Source: SAR86 cluster bacterium | GTDB lineage: Bacteria; Pseudomonadota; Gammaproteobacteria; Magnimaribacterales; Magnimaribacteraceae | Assembly (NCBI GenBank): GCA_022447065.1 | Contig: JAKUUM010000002.1 | Location: 1 to 64,000 of the forward strand | DNA: 64,000 bases | Reading direction: 5' to 3' | In this document: piece by piece, positions 53,423-60,276 of the stretch | Layout of the letters: every line of letters begins with the position of its first letter | Position numbering within the stretch: position 1 is the first letter of the stretch | Made by a program: the position numbers and the translations under genes | Notes under the pieces: generated by a model | The model's input: the letters and a program-made list of their open reading frames with translations, nothing else | Databases searched by the model: none | What the model was told of the DNA's origin: nothing

Positions 53423-53497
53423 TGGTGGGCCGTCTGCGATTCGAACGCAGGACCAATTCCTTAAAAGGGAACTGCTCTACCGCTGAGCTAACGGCCC
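53423..53497 (-). tRNA. tRNA-Lys (anticodon UUU)
   Basis: Read on the minus strand, the acceptor stem is GGGCCGT/ACGGCCC, the D-stem GCTC/GAGC, and the anticodon stem GTTCC/GGAAT with loop CTTTTAA giving anticodon TTT. The T-arm is CTGCG-TTCGAAT-CGCAG, and CCA is encoded. The sequence is very close to E. coli tRNA-Lys. Confidence 0.98.
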
Positions 53498-53547: not shown

Positions 53548-53637
53548 GTGAAAGAACCCTCCTTAACCCTATCTCTCCTACTAACAGCTGGTAATGCTTG
53601 GCTGAAAGTTTTATGTCAAATAGTTTATGGTTGTTAG
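53548..53637 (+). other. Possible 29-codon leader ORF overlapping the next start
   Basis: A GTG at 53548 opens a 29-codon frame with a hydrophobic LTLSLLLTAGNAWLKVL core and ends at TAG 53635-53637, overlapping the ATG at 53627 in another frame. The downstream gene has no visible ribosome binding site, so translational coupling through this small ORF is conceivable. It could equally be chance. Confidence 0.25.
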
Positions 53638-54322
53638 TTCTCCATTAAATGTAGTTTGGTCAAGAATTCAAAATTTGATTGGGCTGTCTTTAATATTGTT
53701 TTTTTTTACTTTGCCCAATCCGAGATTTGTTTTTGTATCATTGGCTCTATGGATTTTCACCTCAACAGTTGTTACTGCATTATTGCAAAAAACCAGATTT
53801 ACCTTAGCCAATATCATTACCCTTTCTAGAGCTTTTGGATTAGTAACTTGTTCTGTTATCCTAGCTCATAACGGATATATTTCTAATTTGTCTGTTTTTA
53901 TTTTAGGAATCTGTTTACTGGCAGATGCTTTAGATGGCTACTTAGCTAGACTCTTTACTACAAGTTCAGCAGGAAAGATACTTGACGGAGAAACTGATCA
54001 ACAATTTGTTCTACTTACAGCCTCTGCTTGCTACATACTCTTACACATGCCCTTTTGGCTGTTATTCTTTCCTTGTATTAAATATATTTTTGGAATTTTC
54101 TACGAATTATTCAAATTATCAGTAAGAGAAAATAGTGGGGAAAAAAGAAGGAAAATTATTGCTGCAATAGTAATGATAATTTTATTTATAAACTTAACCT
54201 CCTTGATTAATGAAGAAACTGGAGTCTTAATATCTTCCTTTGGATTTCTCTTACTATCATATTCTTTTATAGCAGATCTAATCAGGTCAATTCAAACAAA
54301 ATTGAGAAATGAGCCGCAGTAA
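53627..54322 (+). CDS. CDP-alcohol phosphatidyltransferase family membrane protein
   Basis: A 231-residue integral membrane enzyme. The signature D-x2-DG-x2-AR-x7/8-G-x3-D-x3-D appears from about residue 100 as DALDGYLARLFTTSSAGKIL then DGETD, with all four Asp present. About five to six hydrophobic helices surround it. Such enzymes transfer a phosphatidyl or other phospho-alcohol group from a CDP-linked donor; the acceptor cannot be inferred. It is the first gene of a coupled cluster and overlaps the methyltransferase gene by 14 bases. Confidence 0.88.
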   Translation: MVVSSPLNVVWSRIQNLIGLSLILFFFTLPNPRFVFVSLALWIFTSTVVTALLQKTRFTLANIITLSRAFGLVTCSVILAHNGYISNLSVFILGICLLADALDGYLARLFTTSSAGKILDGETDQQFVLLTASACYILLHMPFWLLFFPCIKYIFGIFYELFKLSVRENSGEKRRKIIAAIVMIILFINLTSLINEETGVLISSFGFLLLSYSFIADLIRSIQTKLRNEPQ

Positions 54323-55022
54323 GAATAAACAAAACAAAATTAAAGACTGGTTCGACGAAACATATAAGGAAAAAGGTTTTTCTTACCTCAGGCCACCCAG
54401 AGCTTACAAAGCTTTTATTAATATTTTAAAGTTAAAGTCGGGTAATTCAGTTCTTGATGTAGGTTGTGGTCCAGGGCTCTTTTTAAAACTAGCACATGAA
54501 ATTGGGTGCAACTGTTCAGGTATAGATTTATCTCAACAAGCTGTATCAATGGCTCAAAGCTATGTTCCTGAATCAGATATTCGTTTGGGAAATGCAGAAA
54601 ATTTACCTTTCTTGGACAACAGTTTTGATGTTGTAGTTTGTCTTGGCGCTTTGGAACGTTTCGTTAATCTTGAGGAAGCTCTAGCGCAACAACTTCGCGT
54701 TGCAAAAGAAAATTCTCTTTTTTGTTTCTTGGTTAGAAACTCAAACAGTTTTTTGTGGTTTTTTAACATGAAAATACTAAAACGCCAAAATAGAGCTGGG
54801 CATCAAAATGCAAAGTCACTTGATCAGTGGATTAATTTATTTGAATCTAATGAGTTTACTATTGAAAAAATTTTTCCAGATCAGTGGCCGTTACAAAAAA
54901 TTACTTCTTTCCTTCCATTAGGTATAAGAAGAAAACTTTTGCCCACTATACATAATGGGGTATTGCCTCTTCGGTTTGCTGGAGAGTTTGTATTTCTTCT
55001 CTCAGCTAAGACCTCTTCATAA
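54309..55022 (+). CDS. SAM-dependent class I methyltransferase
   Basis: A 237-residue enzyme with a clear Methyltransf_11 core: motif I VLDVGCGPGLFLKLA near residue 48, GIDLSQQAVSMAQS, LGNAENLPFLDNSFDVVVC. A hydrophobic C-terminal stretch (VLPLRFAGEFVFLLSA) may associate with membrane. Its start lies inside the end of the CDP-alcohol transferase gene. The substrate is unknown; context suggests a lipid or the cluster's product. Confidence 0.9.
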   Translation: MSRSKNKQNKIKDWFDETYKEKGFSYLRPPRAYKAFINILKLKSGNSVLDVGCGPGLFLKLAHEIGCNCSGIDLSQQAVSMAQSYVPESDIRLGNAENLPFLDNSFDVVVCLGALERFVNLEEALAQQLRVAKENSLFCFLVRNSNSFLWFFNMKILKRQNRAGHQNAKSLDQWINLFESNEFTIEKIFPDQWPLQKITSFLPLGIRRKLLPTIHNGVLPLRFAGEFVFLLSAKTSS

Positions 55023-55038
55023 TATATTGTTTGGTTAA

Positions 55039-56649
55039 ATGGAAAGACCAATTCACTACCAGGTCTTTTGGGCCATTATGGCCGTTTTATTGTTAAATTC
55101 TTTCCTTTCAACATCTGTTACTTCGGGAAAATGGTTTAGGTTAAGTTCAGATCTACTTTTCCTTCTACCTTTGTTAATAATAGCTACATCTTTTTCCAAA
55201 AGGCCTAATTACTGGATCCACCTCTTTAGTATATTAATTTGTATCCTTGGTCTTTATAGATTTCTGAACTTACTTACGGATTTGATTTTTCATCGGCCCT
55301 TTTCTTTCTTTGATGTACTTCTAATACCTGAATTAGATTATTTAGTAAATCAGAGTCTAACTACTATTGAGAAAAGCTTCTTAGTGCTTTCAATTCTTAT
55401 CATAGCTATGGTTAGTTATACATTTATATTTCTATTTAGCCGTCTGTTAACTAAATCATTCAGCTTAAGTATAAAAAATACTACTGCAGGAATCTTATTA
55501 GGATTTGGGTTGATAGTTTTCATTCAGTTTTTGGTTATTCTTAAAGAAGGATCAAATTTTAGTTTGACTCGGGGTCCATATATTAAAGACTTTATATATT
55601 TCTTTGACAGAGCAATAAAAGATGTAAGGTTAAATGAGAATCAGTATCTACTAAAACAAGAAATAAAATTAGCTAATAGTTCCTTAGATGAAAATGCTTA
55701 CGATCTCTCCAGATTAAGTAACACAAATGTAATTGTTATATTTATTGAATCTTATGGAGCTGTATTAGTTGAAAATCCAGATCTACTTAATCCTTATAAG
55801 AAATTTTATTCTGAAATGCAGACTTTGTTGGAAAAAAAATCTTTCTCCATGGTTAGTGGCTATTCTGAAGCACCCGACGGTTCATGGAATTCTCGACTCA
55901 GTTTTTCAACTGGAACAAATATTACTCACAGATACATAGCGAACTTAGCAATGGTATCTAATTTGACCACTTTAAATCAAAAATTCTCACAACTAAATCA
56001 TACAACTCTAAGCTTTATGCCAGGCGTTACTGAACCTGTCTTATATATAGAGACCTTTTTTGACTTTCAGAATAGAATACGATTTTGGAACTTAGATTGG
56101 CCTAAAGACAAGTCTTTTGTTGGTTGGCCAGTTATCCCTGATCAATATGCTTTAGAGTGGCTGGGGAGAAAGCCTACTCTTAAAAATATTACACCTTTTT
56201 ATGCAGAGATAGTGCTGTCCAGCAGTCATTCTCCTTTCGGAAGAGTACCCTCTTACATAACTGATGGAACTTTCAATTTGGAAGACTATCATTCAAGAAT
56301 TCAAGGAAAGAAAGACTCTTTGAGCATTTTTTCTTACCTAGAATCAAGTCCTGAAAAATACATGATCTCTATTGAATACAGTCTCCGTTCCTCATTTGAT
56401 TTTATTTTGAAATATCTTGATAAAGAAGACCTAATTATTCTTATAGGAGATCATCAACCGCCCGTGCATAGGACTGATTCTTTTCTTGTCCCAGTTCACA
56501 TTATTAGCGGTAATAGAAGTCTATTAAGTCCATTTAAAAAATTAGGTTTTCAAAAAGACCTATTCTCTTTAGAAGTTAAAAGAAATATTAGTCATGAAGA
56601 CTTTGCACAATTTATTTTGGAGAGCTATTCTTCTCATCAACGAGAATGA
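55039..56649 (+). CDS. Membrane-anchored sulfatase / phosphoglycerol-transferase-like enzyme
   Basis: A 536-residue protein: five transmembrane helices (within about 8-180), then a periplasmic alkaline-phosphatase-superfamily domain. Metal and catalytic landmarks are IFIESYG near residue 234, the presumed nucleophile Ser in APDGSWNSRLSFSTG near 281, SSSHSPFGRVP, and the metal-binding IGDHQPP near 470. LtaS and EptA relatives use Thr as nucleophile; here the aligned residue seems to be Ser, as in many uncharacterised members. It probably transfers or removes a phospho- or sulfo-group on an envelope molecule. It follows the methyltransferase by 16 bases. Confidence 0.85.
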   Translation: MERPIHYQVFWAIMAVLLLNSFLSTSVTSGKWFRLSSDLLFLLPLLIIATSFSKRPNYWIHLFSILICILGLYRFLNLLTDLIFHRPFSFFDVLLIPELDYLVNQSLTTIEKSFLVLSILIIAMVSYTFIFLFSRLLTKSFSLSIKNTTAGILLGFGLIVFIQFLVILKEGSNFSLTRGPYIKDFIYFFDRAIKDVRLNENQYLLKQEIKLANSSLDENAYDLSRLSNTNVIVIFIESYGAVLVENPDLLNPYKKFYSEMQTLLEKKSFSMVSGYSEAPDGSWNSRLSFSTGTNITHRYIANLAMVSNLTTLNQKFSQLNHTTLSFMPGVTEPVLYIETFFDFQNRIRFWNLDWPKDKSFVGWPVIPDQYALEWLGRKPTLKNITPFYAEIVLSSSHSPFGRVPSYITDGTFNLEDYHSRIQGKKDSLSIFSYLESSPEKYMISIEYSLRSSFDFILKYLDKEDLIILIGDHQPPVHRTDSFLVPVHIISGNRSLLSPFKKLGFQKDLFSLEVKRNISHEDFAQFILESYSSHQRE

Positions 56650-56650
56650 G

Positions 56651-57775
56651 ATGGAAAAAGTGGTTAATATAAGAGAGGCAATTACAACCTCTTCTTGCTA
56701 CAAGTCAAGTGAACTTGACCTGGAAAAAACTTCAGATGAATTATGGACGGCTTTACTATCTTGTAAAAAATTTTTATCCACTGTTTCTTTTCTTCCAAAA
56801 AGGCAATATTTCATTAAAAATGAAGATGAAAATTTTTGGGAATATTTTGTGCCAAAAGCAAATAGTCCATTTAAGCCTATAAATGAAAAAATTTGCTATG
56901 TCATTGAAATACAATCAGGTTCAAACTTAGAAGGTGAAGGATTTTTTGGTCTTGAAGATCAAAAAAATAAAACCGTATTAGCTTTTCATGTTGATGACAT
57001 AACTCAACTAAATCTAAATACTAAAATAGAAAAAATATTTGATTTGGAGAATGAATTGAGAAGACCTGCAACTTCTATTAGTTTGTATTTACCTATTATT
57101 TTAGGTGAATGGCGAGCTAGGCAAAATTCTTCCGTATTTGTAACGGGTCATTTGACTCAATCAGAAGATGGGAAAATAACCAAAAAAGATGGCACTCCCG
57201 TTTGGTTAGGCGGAGAAATGGATAAGAAGCATACTCATAGACTAAGAAGTCTGCATGAATCTTTATTGATTGGCTCGAAGACTTTTCGAAATGATAATCC
57301 CAAATTAACAGTAAGACATTGCAAGGGTAAAAATCCTATTCCTATAATTTTTAAAGACTCTCACACAAGTTTTTTTAATAAAGATCTGTTCAAAGTTAAA
57401 AATAGAGAAGTTTTTCTTCTGTGTAGGGATCAAAAGCAACAATCAAACTATGAAAACCTTCAATGCAGGATAAACGAATTAAATTTTAATGTTAATAAAG
57501 CAGTTTTTTCTCCAAAAGAAATCTTAACTAAGCTCGAGCAGAAAGGTATTCATTCTGTTTTTATCGAAGGTGGAGGAATTACCATCTCACATTTTCTTAC
57601 TTCTAATTTATTGGATCGTTTTCACTTACAAATTACAAACAGAAAAATCGGTTCAGGAGTTAATTCTTTTACTCTTCCTGCTTCTTCATCTATTGAAGAG
57701 ATCCACTCTTTAAATAGAATAGATTACAAAATTAAAGATCAAACATTGATTGACTATTCTCCTGTTAGTTCATGA
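56651..57775 (+). CDS. RibD C-terminal (reductase)-like protein with a novel N-terminal region
   Basis: The start is taken at the ATG at 56651, one base after the preceding stop; an earlier in-frame ATG at 56594 lies within the sulfatase gene. The C-terminal part (about 160-374) has the RibD_C/dihydrofolate-reductase fold: FVTGHLTQSEDGKIT, HRLRSLHESLLIGSKTFRNDNPKLTVR, and SVFIEGGGITISHFL near the end. This fold reduces ribose-linked pyrimidine or pterin intermediates with NADPH. The first 150 residues match nothing I recognise and replace the deaminase domain of true RibD. A riboflavin role is doubtful; the cluster context points to another heterocycle pathway. Confidence 0.85.
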   Translation: MEKVVNIREAITTSSCYKSSELDLEKTSDELWTALLSCKKFLSTVSFLPKRQYFIKNEDENFWEYFVPKANSPFKPINEKICYVIEIQSGSNLEGEGFFGLEDQKNKTVLAFHVDDITQLNLNTKIEKIFDLENELRRPATSISLYLPIILGEWRARQNSSVFVTGHLTQSEDGKITKKDGTPVWLGGEMDKKHTHRLRSLHESLLIGSKTFRNDNPKLTVRHCKGKNPIPIIFKDSHTSFFNKDLFKVKNREVFLLCRDQKQQSNYENLQCRINELNFNVNKAVFSPKEILTKLEQKGIHSVFIEGGGITISHFLTSNLLDRFHLQITNRKIGSGVNSFTLPASSSIEEIHSLNRIDYKIKDQTLIDYSPVSS

Positions 57776-57800
57776 TTTAAATAAGATAACTAAAAGAATT

Positions 57801-58865
57801 ATGTTAAAAATTGAACTGCTTCAACCCCCAAGAAGTAACCAACAATCTGGGGGTTACTTGTTTAACGAAAATATAACTAAGCTTCTGAAAGAAAAAGGAA
57901 TCTGTAAGTTAGTAGAAGTAAAAAAAGAAAACCTTATTGAATATATATCAGAGGCTTCCTTCAAAAGAGTTGTTATTGTTTTAGATAGTATTTATCTTCA
58001 ATTCATAGATTTTTCTGAAATAAAACCTTTGTTGAGAGAAGAAAACCTTAAAATTATTCTCTTATTACACTTGTTACCAAGTAGTGACTTAGATAAAGAA
58101 TCGTTTGATAATCAAATATTAAAAAAATTGAACTCTAGAGAGTTAGCCTGGATTAAGCAAAGTAATTTAGTAATTATAGTTACTGGCAGCAGTTACAAGA
58201 AAGAACTTTTAAAACATCGTGTTTGTTCTTCAAGAGTTAAAGTTGTCAACCCAGGTCAAGAAAGCTATCCATTTAAGACTATTAAAGTTGGAGAATCTAA
58301 AAAAATCCATTATCCGATAAAAGGCATTAGTGTTGGTACTATATCGCCAAGGAAAAACCAAATTCTCCTTGTGGACATGCTTTCAAAAATTAATCCAAAG
58401 TTATATCGATGGACCTTTATAGGAAACAAACAGTTATTTCCTGAATATACTAAAAAGGTAATGAATATGGCAAATAAGGGTAACTGGAAAGCTAGCTTAT
58501 TTTTTGTTGGTCAAGTTCATCATTCCAAGGTACTAATGAGTCTTACTGATTCGGATCTTTTTGTATCTACTTCAGTAAAAGAATCTTATGGCATGTCCGT
58601 AGCTGAAGCTTGCTCTGTAGGTTTACCTGTTTTGTCATTTAATACAGGCGATTTTTCTAGTTGGGTAAAACATAATCAGAATGGATATTTAATTGATCAA
58701 GATGATATTCGGGGTATGCAAAATAAATTAAATGATGTTATTAGTGATTTAAGTATATTGACTGGTTTGAAGGATGTAGCTAAAAAAAATAGTTCAGGAA
58801 TTCATTTTCCAACTTGGGAAGAAAGTAGTACAAAATTAGAAAAAATCTGTCGAACAATTTACTAA
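57801..58865 (+). CDS. Glycosyltransferase family 4 protein
   Basis: About 354 residues from the ATG at 57801 (MLKIELLQPPRSNQQSGGYLFNENI in outline); a TTG start at 57750 would overlap the previous gene and adds unrelated residues. The GT-B fold is supported by the GGYLFN start loop, the second-domain opening GTISPRKNQILLVDML, and the nucleotide-sugar motif SVKESYGMSVAEACSVGLPVLSF near residue 260 with a canonical E-x7-E spacing. Donor and acceptor are unknown. It sits between the RibD-like gene and the dehydrogenase, within the coupled cluster. Confidence 0.9.
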   Translation: MLKIELLQPPRSNQQSGGYLFNENITKLLKEKGICKLVEVKKENLIEYISEASFKRVVIVLDSIYLQFIDFSEIKPLLREENLKIILLLHLLPSSDLDKESFDNQILKKLNSRELAWIKQSNLVIIVTGSSYKKELLKHRVCSSRVKVVNPGQESYPFKTIKVGESKKIHYPIKGISVGTISPRKNQILLVDMLSKINPKLYRWTFIGNKQLFPEYTKKVMNMANKGNWKASLFFVGQVHHSKVLMSLTDSDLFVSTSVKESYGMSVAEACSVGLPVLSFNTGDFSSWVKHNQNGYLIDQDDIRGMQNKLNDVISDLSILTGLKDVAKKNSSGIHFPTWEESSTKLEKICRTIY

Positions 58866-58867
58866 AA

Positions 58868-59842
58868 ATGCAATCATTAAGTTATTGGGTTGTTAAAGCC
58901 AACGAAGGTGAGATAAGAGAAGCAAAGCTTTTTGAAAAAAAGGAAAGCACATTAGTTAAAACATTATTATCTGGAGTAAGCACAGGAACTGAAAAACTAG
59001 TTGGGAAAGGCAATGTGCCAAGATCGGCATTTAATTTTATGTCCGTTCCTTATATGAAAGGAAATTTTGATCTTCCAATTAAGTATGGATACAGCTTGGT
59101 AGGAGAACCGCAGAGTGGTGATTACAAAGGCTCAAGGATTTTCGTTATGCACCCTCATCAAAATTTATGTTTTGTATCCAATGAAGATTTATTTATTTTA
59201 CCAGATGAAATTTCGAACGAAAAAGCTATTTTGATTCCCAATATGGAAACTGCTTTAAATGCCATTTGGGATGCGGAACTTAAACAAAAGGATCGCATAG
59301 GTATTGTGGGAGCTGGTACTTTAGGAATTTCTGTTGGGTTTGTTCTTGCAGCAAAGGACTTTAATTTCGTTATGATAGAGAAAAATACAAAACGTCTAAA
59401 AGACTCATTGGAACTTAAATGGATCCCGCTCTCAAAATCAGAAGCCAGTAATCAAACCCAATCTTACGATATAATATTTCATACATCTGGTTCTTCTCAA
59501 GGACTACAAAGATCAATAGATCTAGGAGGGTTTGAGAGTAGAGTTATTGATTTAAGTTGGTATGGATCAAATAAAGTCAACCTTAATCTGGGAGAGTCTT
59601 TCCATTGGGAGAGGAAGAAAATTATTTCTTCCCAAGTTTCTCACATAGCACTTCCAAAAAGAAAGCTGATAAAAAAGAAAGATAGACTGAAAGAGGTTAT
59701 TGACCTATTGAGAGATCCTGTTTTAAATAAGTTTAGAAGACATGAAGTAGGATTTAATAACTTACCTAGATTTATGAAACAGTTATATGCTAATAAAGAT
59801 GTTGGGTGGTCGCCAATAATTAACTATCAAAATATAAGCTAA
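58868..59842 (+). CDS. Zinc-less MDR (alcohol dehydrogenase-like) oxidoreductase
   Basis: A 324-residue medium-chain dehydrogenase/reductase. The GroES-like half has SGVSTGTEKLVGKG and KYGYSLVGE; the Rossmann half has IGIVGAGTLGISVGFVLA near residue 147. The catalytic Cys/His zinc ligands and the four-Cys structural zinc loop of classical ADH are not apparent. It resembles the group often labelled zinc-binding alcohol dehydrogenase near pterin-synthase-like genes. It starts 2 bases after the glycosyltransferase and overlaps the next gene by 1 base. The substrate is unknown. Confidence 0.85.
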   Translation: MQSLSYWVVKANEGEIREAKLFEKKESTLVKTLLSGVSTGTEKLVGKGNVPRSAFNFMSVPYMKGNFDLPIKYGYSLVGEPQSGDYKGSRIFVMHPHQNLCFVSNEDLFILPDEISNEKAILIPNMETALNAIWDAELKQKDRIGIVGAGTLGISVGFVLAAKDFNFVMIEKNTKRLKDSLELKWIPLSKSEASNQTQSYDIIFHTSGSSQGLQRSIDLGGFESRVIDLSWYGSNKVNLNLGESFHWERKKIISSQVSHIALPKRKLIKKKDRLKEVIDLLRDPVLNKFRRHEVGFNNLPRFMKQLYANKDVGWSPIINYQNIS

Positions 59843-60219
59843 TGTACAGTTTAGCAGTTAACGATTTTTTTATGGTAGCCCATAGCTTAAAAGGAGAAGA
59901 GTTTGGTGTTGCTCAAAATCTGCATGGCGCAACTTTTGAAATTACTACTGAGTACAAAGTTGAAAAACTTAATTATTCAGGAGTAGTTATTGACGTTACC
60001 GTTGCAACAGAAATTTTAAAAAAGGTTACAACCACATTAAATTATAAGAATTTAGACGAATTAAAAGAATTTAAAAAATTAAATACAACTATGGAGGTAC
60101 TCTGCGAGTATATTCACAACCAAATTTCAAAACATTTGTCAGGAGATTTTGAAGGCACTCTAAAAGTTGTTATTAAAGAAAGTCCGTTAGCTCATTGTTC
60201 TTATGAAAATAAAATCTAA
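59842..60219 (+). CDS. 6-pyruvoyl-tetrahydropterin synthase / QueD-fold protein with altered active site
   Basis: A 125-residue protein with the T-fold pattern of PTPS/QueD: FFMVAHSL (His14), NLHGATFEI (His28), SGVVIDVTVATEILKKV, NTTMEVLCEYIHNQI and VVIKESPLAHCSY. In canonical enzymes the central motif is C-x3-HGH, giving a catalytic Cys and two zinc His. Here it is A-x3-HGA, so the Cys and the third zinc His are both absent. The reaction is therefore probably not the standard pyruvoyl- or carboxy-tetrahydropterin one. It is the last gene of the coupled cluster. Confidence 0.85.
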   Translation: MYSLAVNDFFMVAHSLKGEEFGVAQNLHGATFEITTEYKVEKLNYSGVVIDVTVATEILKKVTTTLNYKNLDELKEFKKLNTTMEVLCEYIHNQISKHLSGDFEGTLKVVIKESPLAHCSYENKI

Positions 60220-60276
60220 ACTCCACTTAGCCATATTGCTTCAACTGTAACCGGTGATGTAATTTACTATGACTAG

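Follow-up and report, generated by a model that had tools for sequence, protein, structure and literature searches.

What is made by seven closely packed genes that lie beside a tRNA-Lys gene in the genome of a SAR86 cluster bacterium? The 64,000-nucleotide stretch that we analyzed (positions 1 to 64,000 of contig JAKUUM010000002.1, assembly GCA_022447065.1; hereafter, the window) carries a plus-strand block at 53627–60219 with seven intact open reading frames (ORFs), placed as in a preliminary description made from the sequence alone. They code for a CDP-alcohol phosphatidyltransferase (CAPT) family membrane enzyme, a methyltransferase, a membrane protein of the alkaline phosphatase superfamily (AlkP), a RibD-like reductase, a glycosyltransferase, a medium-chain dehydrogenase/reductase (MDR) alcohol dehydrogenase, and a protein related to 6-pyruvoyltetrahydropterin synthase (PTPS) that falls in the PTPS-IV subfamily. 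The cluster is a variant of a widespread orphan PTPS-IV pathway, with the CAPT and AlkP genes and without a cyclohydrolase gene. A pterin or pyrimidine glycoconjugate is the best available interpretation, suggested by gene content and conserved residues: a vitamin B2-type building block is probably converted into a sugar-bearing compound, which this version of the pathway would pass by way of a membrane lipid to the envelope. We put at roughly 0.45 the probability that the cluster makes, by way of a CAPT-made lipid and AlkP, a glycoconjugate that is secreted or bound to the envelope and whose reduced core is pyrimidine- or pterin-like.

A gene cluster shared by distant phyla

A search for the dehydrogenase in 397 other Pseudomonadota genomes (E of 1e-33 or better) found homologues in 31, and with the genus-mate G001, 32 loci were read. 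Every one of these has the PTPS-like gene beside the dehydrogenase gene, 31 have the glycosyltransferase, and 28 have a RibD-like gene. A scan of GTDB genomes with an alignment of the PTPS-like proteins identified at least 586 further confirmed relatives; the single RibD-like sequence, with its overly specific peptide patterns, had given no match in genome contigs. The 80 relatives kept, some of them from Cyanobacteria, Actinomycetota, and Bacteroidota, include Nostoc, Planctomycetota, Saprospiraceae, Gemmatimonadota, Spirochaetaceae, Streptomyces, Micromonospora, Sorangium, and many Proteobacteria, and further copies of the cluster are on plasmids. One such plasmid is pOB3b1 of the culturable Methylosinus trichosporium OB3b, for which no CAPT was listed; carriers with CAPT include Streptomyces and Rhizobium. 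Co-occurrence was counted in 84 loci of 18 kb or more, with partners identified from NCBIfam and public annotation. The core comprises the PTPS-like (84 loci), MDR (82), glycosyltransferase (80), and RibD-like (66) genes; other partners are a second type of methyltransferase (69), an FkbM methyltransferase (18), CAPT (27), and AlkP (16).

Comparison of the window copy with that in G001 gives nonsynonymous divergence (dN) of 0.13–0.29 against synonymous divergence (dS) of 1.1–1.2, and we conclude that the genes are kept by purifying selection. The joint recurrence of these genes across distant phyla, together with purifying selection on the copies, leads us to reject a chance neighborhood: the seven genes are a real, widely shared bacterial pathway unit. 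The claim that they are inherited as one unit thus stands, and the absence of co-occurrence that would have counted against it was not seen. Retention of the cluster under purifying selection in so streamlined a genome (1.55 Mb, 93% complete) points to a useful product.

The tight packing reported in the preliminary description, with neighboring genes overlapping or no more than 25 bases apart, also holds once two start codons are corrected. Called from 56594, the RibD-like ORF shares 56 bases with the preceding gene, whose stop (56649) is directly followed by an in-frame ATG (56651); the glycosyltransferase start moves from TTG 57750 to ATG 57801 because the G001 protein begins there. With these better placed starts (56651 and 57801), the spacings in gene order are −14, 16, 1, 25, 2, and −1 bases.

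An orphan PTPS subfamily and a reductase without a deaminase domain

The last gene of the cluster (59842–60219, plus strand) codes for a 125-residue T-fold protein (PF01242, E=3e-22) that, judged by its profile matches and motifs, is a member of the PTPS-IV subfamily (COG0720/IPR007115), whose function has never been assigned. Its profile matches the structure of Streptomyces coelicolor SCO6650 (3d7j) at E=2.7e-57; for true PTPS and QueD, the values are no better than 1e-6 to 1e-3 (QueD, E=2e-4). In profile alignment to PTPS (3i2b), the catalytic cysteine region reads GPAQ, the zinc motif HGH becomes HGA, and the catalytic LDHKNLD becomes LNYKNLD; the catalytic cysteine of PTPS and QueD, one zinc histidine, and the Asp-His pair are therefore lost, and the protein retains the first of the zinc histidines along with the conserved positions for Thr and Glu. 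In PTPS, the Thr and Glu positions anchor the pterin, and the other residues serve catalysis and zinc binding. SCO6650 itself is reportedly missing the zinc and the catalytic triad, with the pterin-binding residues kept. All 117 PTPS proteins from the clusters contain FGxAQ and HGA[TS]; relative to the subfamily signature FGPAQ, the window protein has one substitution (FGVAQ), and G001 has FGQAQ.

NCBI labels PTPS-IV orthologues as ‘6-carboxytetrahydropterin synthase’ with a queuosine Gene Ontology term (L163–L167 and their records), which would favor the simplest account, that the PTPS-like gene is queD and the cluster a by-product of queuosine annotation. We give this account next to no likelihood. 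The QueD (PTPS-I) motif CxxxHGH, with its three zinc histidines, is absent from the window protein, which reads FGVAQNLHGAT, as are the catalytic Cys and Asp-His pair of true PTPS (PTPS-II), and the match to QueD is far weaker than that to SCO6650. On its residues, the protein cannot carry out PTPS or QueD chemistry, and both queuosine and biopterin functions were rejected on these grounds; the queuosine annotations are wrong, being contradicted by the lost catalytic residues. On this point the preliminary description, which named a PTPS-like fold, needs correcting. PTPS-IV is a large orphan subfamily, labeled as queuosine or biopterin enzymes in databases despite a crystal structure in the PDB.

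Our search of the literature for the gene combination, or for SCO6650 and SCO6655, returned no description of the pathway, and only PMC5445326 and PMC5041015 name PTPS-IV. This agrees with the preliminary description, which could name no pathway with this gene set. The neighborhood itself has been noticed in part: RibD_C (PF01872) and PF00925, the latter a frequent neighbor, were seen in the PTPS-IV neighborhood (PMC5445326), and the SCO6650 structure is in the PDB. The window protein shares with SCO6650 its subfamily, its FGxAQ signature, and the reported RibD_C and PF00925 neighbors; compared with the reported neighborhoods, the window cluster lacks cyclohydrolase and creatininase genes and adds CAPT, AlkP, and a methyltransferase. 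PF00925 is labeled GTP cyclohydrolase I/FolE2 in PMC5445326, and the Pfam model itself is GTP_cyclohydro2 (GTP cyclohydrolase II, RibA type).

The RibD-like gene (56651–57775, plus strand) has a RibD_C match (PF01872, E=1.1e-27) covering residues 182–364, and its closest profile matches are the diamino-ribosylamino-pyrimidinone phosphate (DARPP) reductases 6p8c (E=3e-40) and 2azn. The reductase motifs are intact (Q189, D192, G193, E325, G326, and G327), and Pfam finds no match to the zinc deaminase domain of bifunctional RibD; the N-terminal region is unrelated to it. In the ORF from 56594, this N-terminal extension (residues ~1–155) is modeled mostly with a predicted local distance difference test score (pLDDT) below 50, and no fold can be assigned. 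The RibD-like matches that other members of the order gave resemble ordinary riboflavin RibD proteins (21–32% identity, frames of ~335–392 amino acids) and were rejected as cluster members. Together, the RibD_C and PTPS family matches and the DARPP-type reductase profile bear out the flavin- or pterin-type chemistry first suggested for the cluster. A protein with RibD_C and no deaminase resembles the reductase of the archaeal and fungal riboflavin pathway (2azn), but the cluster has no lumazine or riboflavin synthase, and has a glycosyltransferase, a dehydrogenase, and a PTPS-IV protein instead.

Related clusters add plausible early steps. GTP cyclohydrolase II (PF00925) is encoded in 34 of the 84 loci, and a creatininase-family protein in 15. 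All 42 cluster cyclohydrolases examined keep the zinc cysteines, the catalytic residues are also conserved, and 39 have Tyr at the position of Escherichia coli RibA Tyr105. Two Streptomyces versions have Met there, which we take to be the SCO6655 substitution; SCO6655, a S. coelicolor GTP cyclohydrolase II, is said to stop at the formylated pyrimidine intermediate. With Tyr in 39/42, a general coupling of creatininase with a Tyr-to-Met cyclohydrolase was rejected, and the window cluster has no cyclohydrolase of either type. Sinorhizobium meliloti BrbF, a creatininase-family protein, deformylates the first pyrimidine intermediate (PMC9478397), and by analogy this activity would explain the creatininase genes; GTP cyclohydrolase II together with creatininase-family proteins in related clusters resembles the first steps of riboflavin synthesis with BrbF.

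These shared early steps, to which both RibD_C and GTP cyclohydrolase II belong, also raise the question of whether the cluster is part of an F420-type or riboflavin-type cofactor route, and an unpublished remark quoted in PMC5041015 places PTPS-IV in archaeal F420 synthesis. We regard such a role as very unlikely: neither FO synthase, lumazine synthase, riboflavin synthase, nor any other F420 or flavin gene was found in the window cluster or among the identified conserved neighbor families, and a glycosyltransferase is nearly universal in the clusters.

Three further enzymes would act after these early steps. The dehydrogenase (58868–59842, plus strand; 324 amino acids) has BchC as its closest curated model (TIGR01202, E=8e-14), at 51 bits against a cut-off of 291, and its family alignment has invariant SxGTE and KYGY where the MDR zinc-ligand motifs, usually CGTD and GHE, would stand. 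Although BchC, a bacteriochlorophyllide hydroxyethyl dehydrogenase, is the nearest model, the operon contains no bacteriochlorophyll genes. The glycosyltransferase (57801–58865, plus strand; ~354 amino acids) belongs to family GT4 (PF00534, Glycos_transf_1, E=5e-22). The class I S-adenosylmethionine-dependent methyltransferase (54309–55022, plus strand; 237 amino acids; PF08241, E=2e-20) has clear relatives, by sequence inspection, in clusters L097 (12279–12986, minus strand) and L132 (5192–5911, plus strand). The GT4 enzyme, the dehydrogenase, and the methyltransferases together imply, from their family assignments, oxidation, methylation, and glycosylation of the product. Several clusters of the window clade also encode a small membrane protein that resembles isoprenylcysteine methyltransferases (L085, 7427–8101; L097, 13018–13647; L132, 4674–5225) and that the window cluster lacks.

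From these assignments we infer a pathway, including its substrates, the order of its steps from the second to the sixth, and the acceptor. GTP would first be opened by GTP cyclohydrolase II, as in the many related clusters that encode it, and here presumably by the riboflavin-pathway enzyme. The RibD-like protein would then reduce the ribosyl chain with no deamination, giving 2,5-diamino-6-ribitylamino-pyrimidinone phosphate as in archaea and fungi; the PTPS-IV protein would bind this pyrimidine or pterin-type compound and carry out a non-PTPS step; and as a fourth step the BchC-like dehydrogenase and the methyltransferase would alter the side chain or ring, with GT4 adding a sugar.

Membrane enzymes and a possible envelope conjugate

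The two membrane enzymes suggest what may happen next. The CAPT (53627–54322, plus strand; 231 amino acids; PF01066, E=4.6e-13) has a complete motif (DALDGYLARLFTTSSAGKILDGETD from residue 100), and the family motif DxxDGxxARx(7-8)GxxxDxxxD is present in all 38 CAPT homologues of the clusters. AlkP (55039–56649, plus strand; 536 amino acids) has no Pfam or NCBIfam match and was placed by a fold search: its AlphaFold model (mean pLDDT 75), an N-terminal helical membrane part followed by a periplasmic catalytic domain, best matches LtaP (4uop, E=8.5e-8), LtaS, GacH, and EptC. Residues E237, S282, H397, D471, and H472 are conserved, consistent with an LtaS/EptA-type fold and metal site, and Ser282, a Ser in place of Thr, is taken as the nucleophile because its spacing to Glu237 equals that of Thr300 to Glu255 in LtaS. 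AlkP and the CAPT resemble the LtaS/EptA/GacH/OpgB phosphotransferases and the CDP-alcohol phosphatidyltransferases in fold, membrane-anchored layout, and conserved metal-site residues; identity to the phosphotransferases is ~10–18%, AlkP fits no family model, and the window protein departs from the others just ahead of the presumed nucleophile.

For LtaS-type enzymes, the donor of the phospho-headgroup is a phospholipid; by analogy, CAPT and AlkP would form a plausible pair, the one making a special phospholipid and the other using it. AlkP occurs with CAPT in 14 of its 16 loci (odds ratio 30), and on the dehydrogenase tree the two change together in 4.2 of 5 independent pairs, compared with 0.1. 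In clusters such as that of the window, the CAPT would in a fifth step use CDP-diacylglycerol to link phosphatidate to a hydroxyl group on the product, and in a sixth the LtaS/EptA-fold enzyme would transfer the phospho-headgroup from the lipid to an acceptor at the outer face of the inner membrane, possibly a periplasmic glucan in species with mdoGH.

A version of this last step, in which a sugar-modified headgroup on a phosphatidyl lipid is transferred specifically to osmoregulated periplasmic glucans, draws some support from neighboring genes. MdoH is in the sampled flanks of 31/84 loci, in Alpha-, Beta-, and Gammaproteobacteria and Gemmatimonadota, far above chance for one gene per genome, and MdoG (named by sequence inspection, with no NCBIfam match) is near eight, all with CAPT; the AlkP fold fits the superfamily of E. 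coli MdoB, which moves phosphoglycerol from phosphatidylglycerol to glucan. However, MdoH presence does not track CAPT, the co-occurrence of MdoG with CAPT is phylogenetically dependent, and MdoG (PF04349) was found neither in the window genome nor in G001; we consider transfer specifically to glucans improbable, and a periplasmic glucan was rejected as the acceptor in the window genome.

The core cluster might alternatively make a soluble glycosylated pyrimidine or pterin secondary metabolite, such as a cofactor, pigment, redox mediator, or light absorber, with CAPT and AlkP merely neighbors that act on another lipid or glycan. Most loci have the MDR–PTPS–glycosyltransferase–RibD set without CAPT, and cytochrome b561-like and YceI-like neighbors would fit a redox role. 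Nonetheless, both genes belong to this one compact operon, and both turn up alongside the core again in Gammaproteobacteria, Planctomycetota, Actinomycetota, and Gemmatimonadota. We see the soluble metabolite as a tentative but real contender.

Several points weigh against an envelope-bound glycoconjugate. The case for it is built from genes, folds, and residues, and neither substrate nor product has been observed. Roughly two in three clusters have no CAPT, and lipid attachment is therefore not the core function; with only five independent pairs, the CAPT–AlkP association cannot reach a p of 0.05. The window AlkP has Asp directly before Ser282, where most family members have Thr. The search for a PF00925 cyclohydrolase, the riboflavin one included, was negative for both the window cluster and the 93%-complete genome, as was that for a creatininase protein in this genome; the early steps would therefore presumably rely on the riboflavin pathway. 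The absence of MdoG noted above and that of a flippase-like (LPG_synthase_TM) protein, which is in 47/84 loci (31/82 at a stricter cut-off) and was not found in the window genome, leave a glucan acceptor unsupported here and no gene for the flipping step.

None of our tests nevertheless overturned the proposal of a heterocycle bearing a sugar and perhaps a lipid, and the GTP cyclohydrolase II and envelope-glucan genes of related clusters fit it; the part that concerns lipid attachment or export applies to only a subset of clusters and stays conditional. If an envelope-bound product is indeed made, it would be a new use of flavin or pterin chemistry. A broader proposal, which we hold to be doubtful, is that the clusters define an undescribed class of envelope conjugates, in which a GTP-derived glycosylated diaminopyrimidine or pterin-like headgroup would be lipidated by CAPT and moved by the LtaS/EptA-fold enzyme to a periplasmic glycan or other surface acceptor, in many phyla and on tRNA-targeted islands and plasmids. 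Defining the whole cluster makes its product findable through deletion of one gene in a tractable host.

Two further observations concern these genomes. The lack of a detected PF00925 gene in the window genome, although its relatives have riboflavin genes, could reflect assembly loss or an unusual riboflavin route; G001 has one cyclohydrolase, ~0.7 kb from its ordinary RibD. The cytochrome b561-like and YceI-like genes, named by inspection, recur beside some clusters (L052, L076, L079, L081, L115, L119, L123, L140; L056, L060, L062, L072, L096, L122), which might point to a periplasmic redox function for the product.

The tRNA-Lys locus and the origin of the cluster

The cluster is bounded on the left by a minus-strand tRNA-Lys(TTT) gene identified with ARAGORN (53423–53497) and on the right by genes that we take, from the known tol-pal order, to be cpoB-pal-tolB-tolA-tolR. 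Other family members, the genus-mates G002 and G003 among them, have tRNA-Lys immediately adjacent to cpoB and lack the cluster there; the window has its cluster at exactly this junction (53423–53497 and 60220–60276, compared with L179 15062–15220 and L172 3185–3305). In G001, the copy beside cpoB consists of the first 43 bases of tRNA-Lys, broken just past the anticodon loop, followed by the cluster. The cut tRNA-Lys in G001 and the cluster-free gap in relatives suggest an island that arrived at the tRNA-Lys anticodon, and the cluster was most likely acquired horizontally as a tRNA-Lys island, absent from most relatives. No integrase is visible in the window insert. A quick dehydrogenase tree with long branches groups the window with Nostoc/Scytonema, Planctomycetota, Bacteroidota, and two proteobacterial metagenome-assembled genomes, apart from the main proteobacterial clade. 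The window tRNA-Lys is intact but matches the genus copy at only 92% identity; it differs in the D loop and at a compensated pair of the T stem, as though the tRNA had come with the island or been rebuilt by it.

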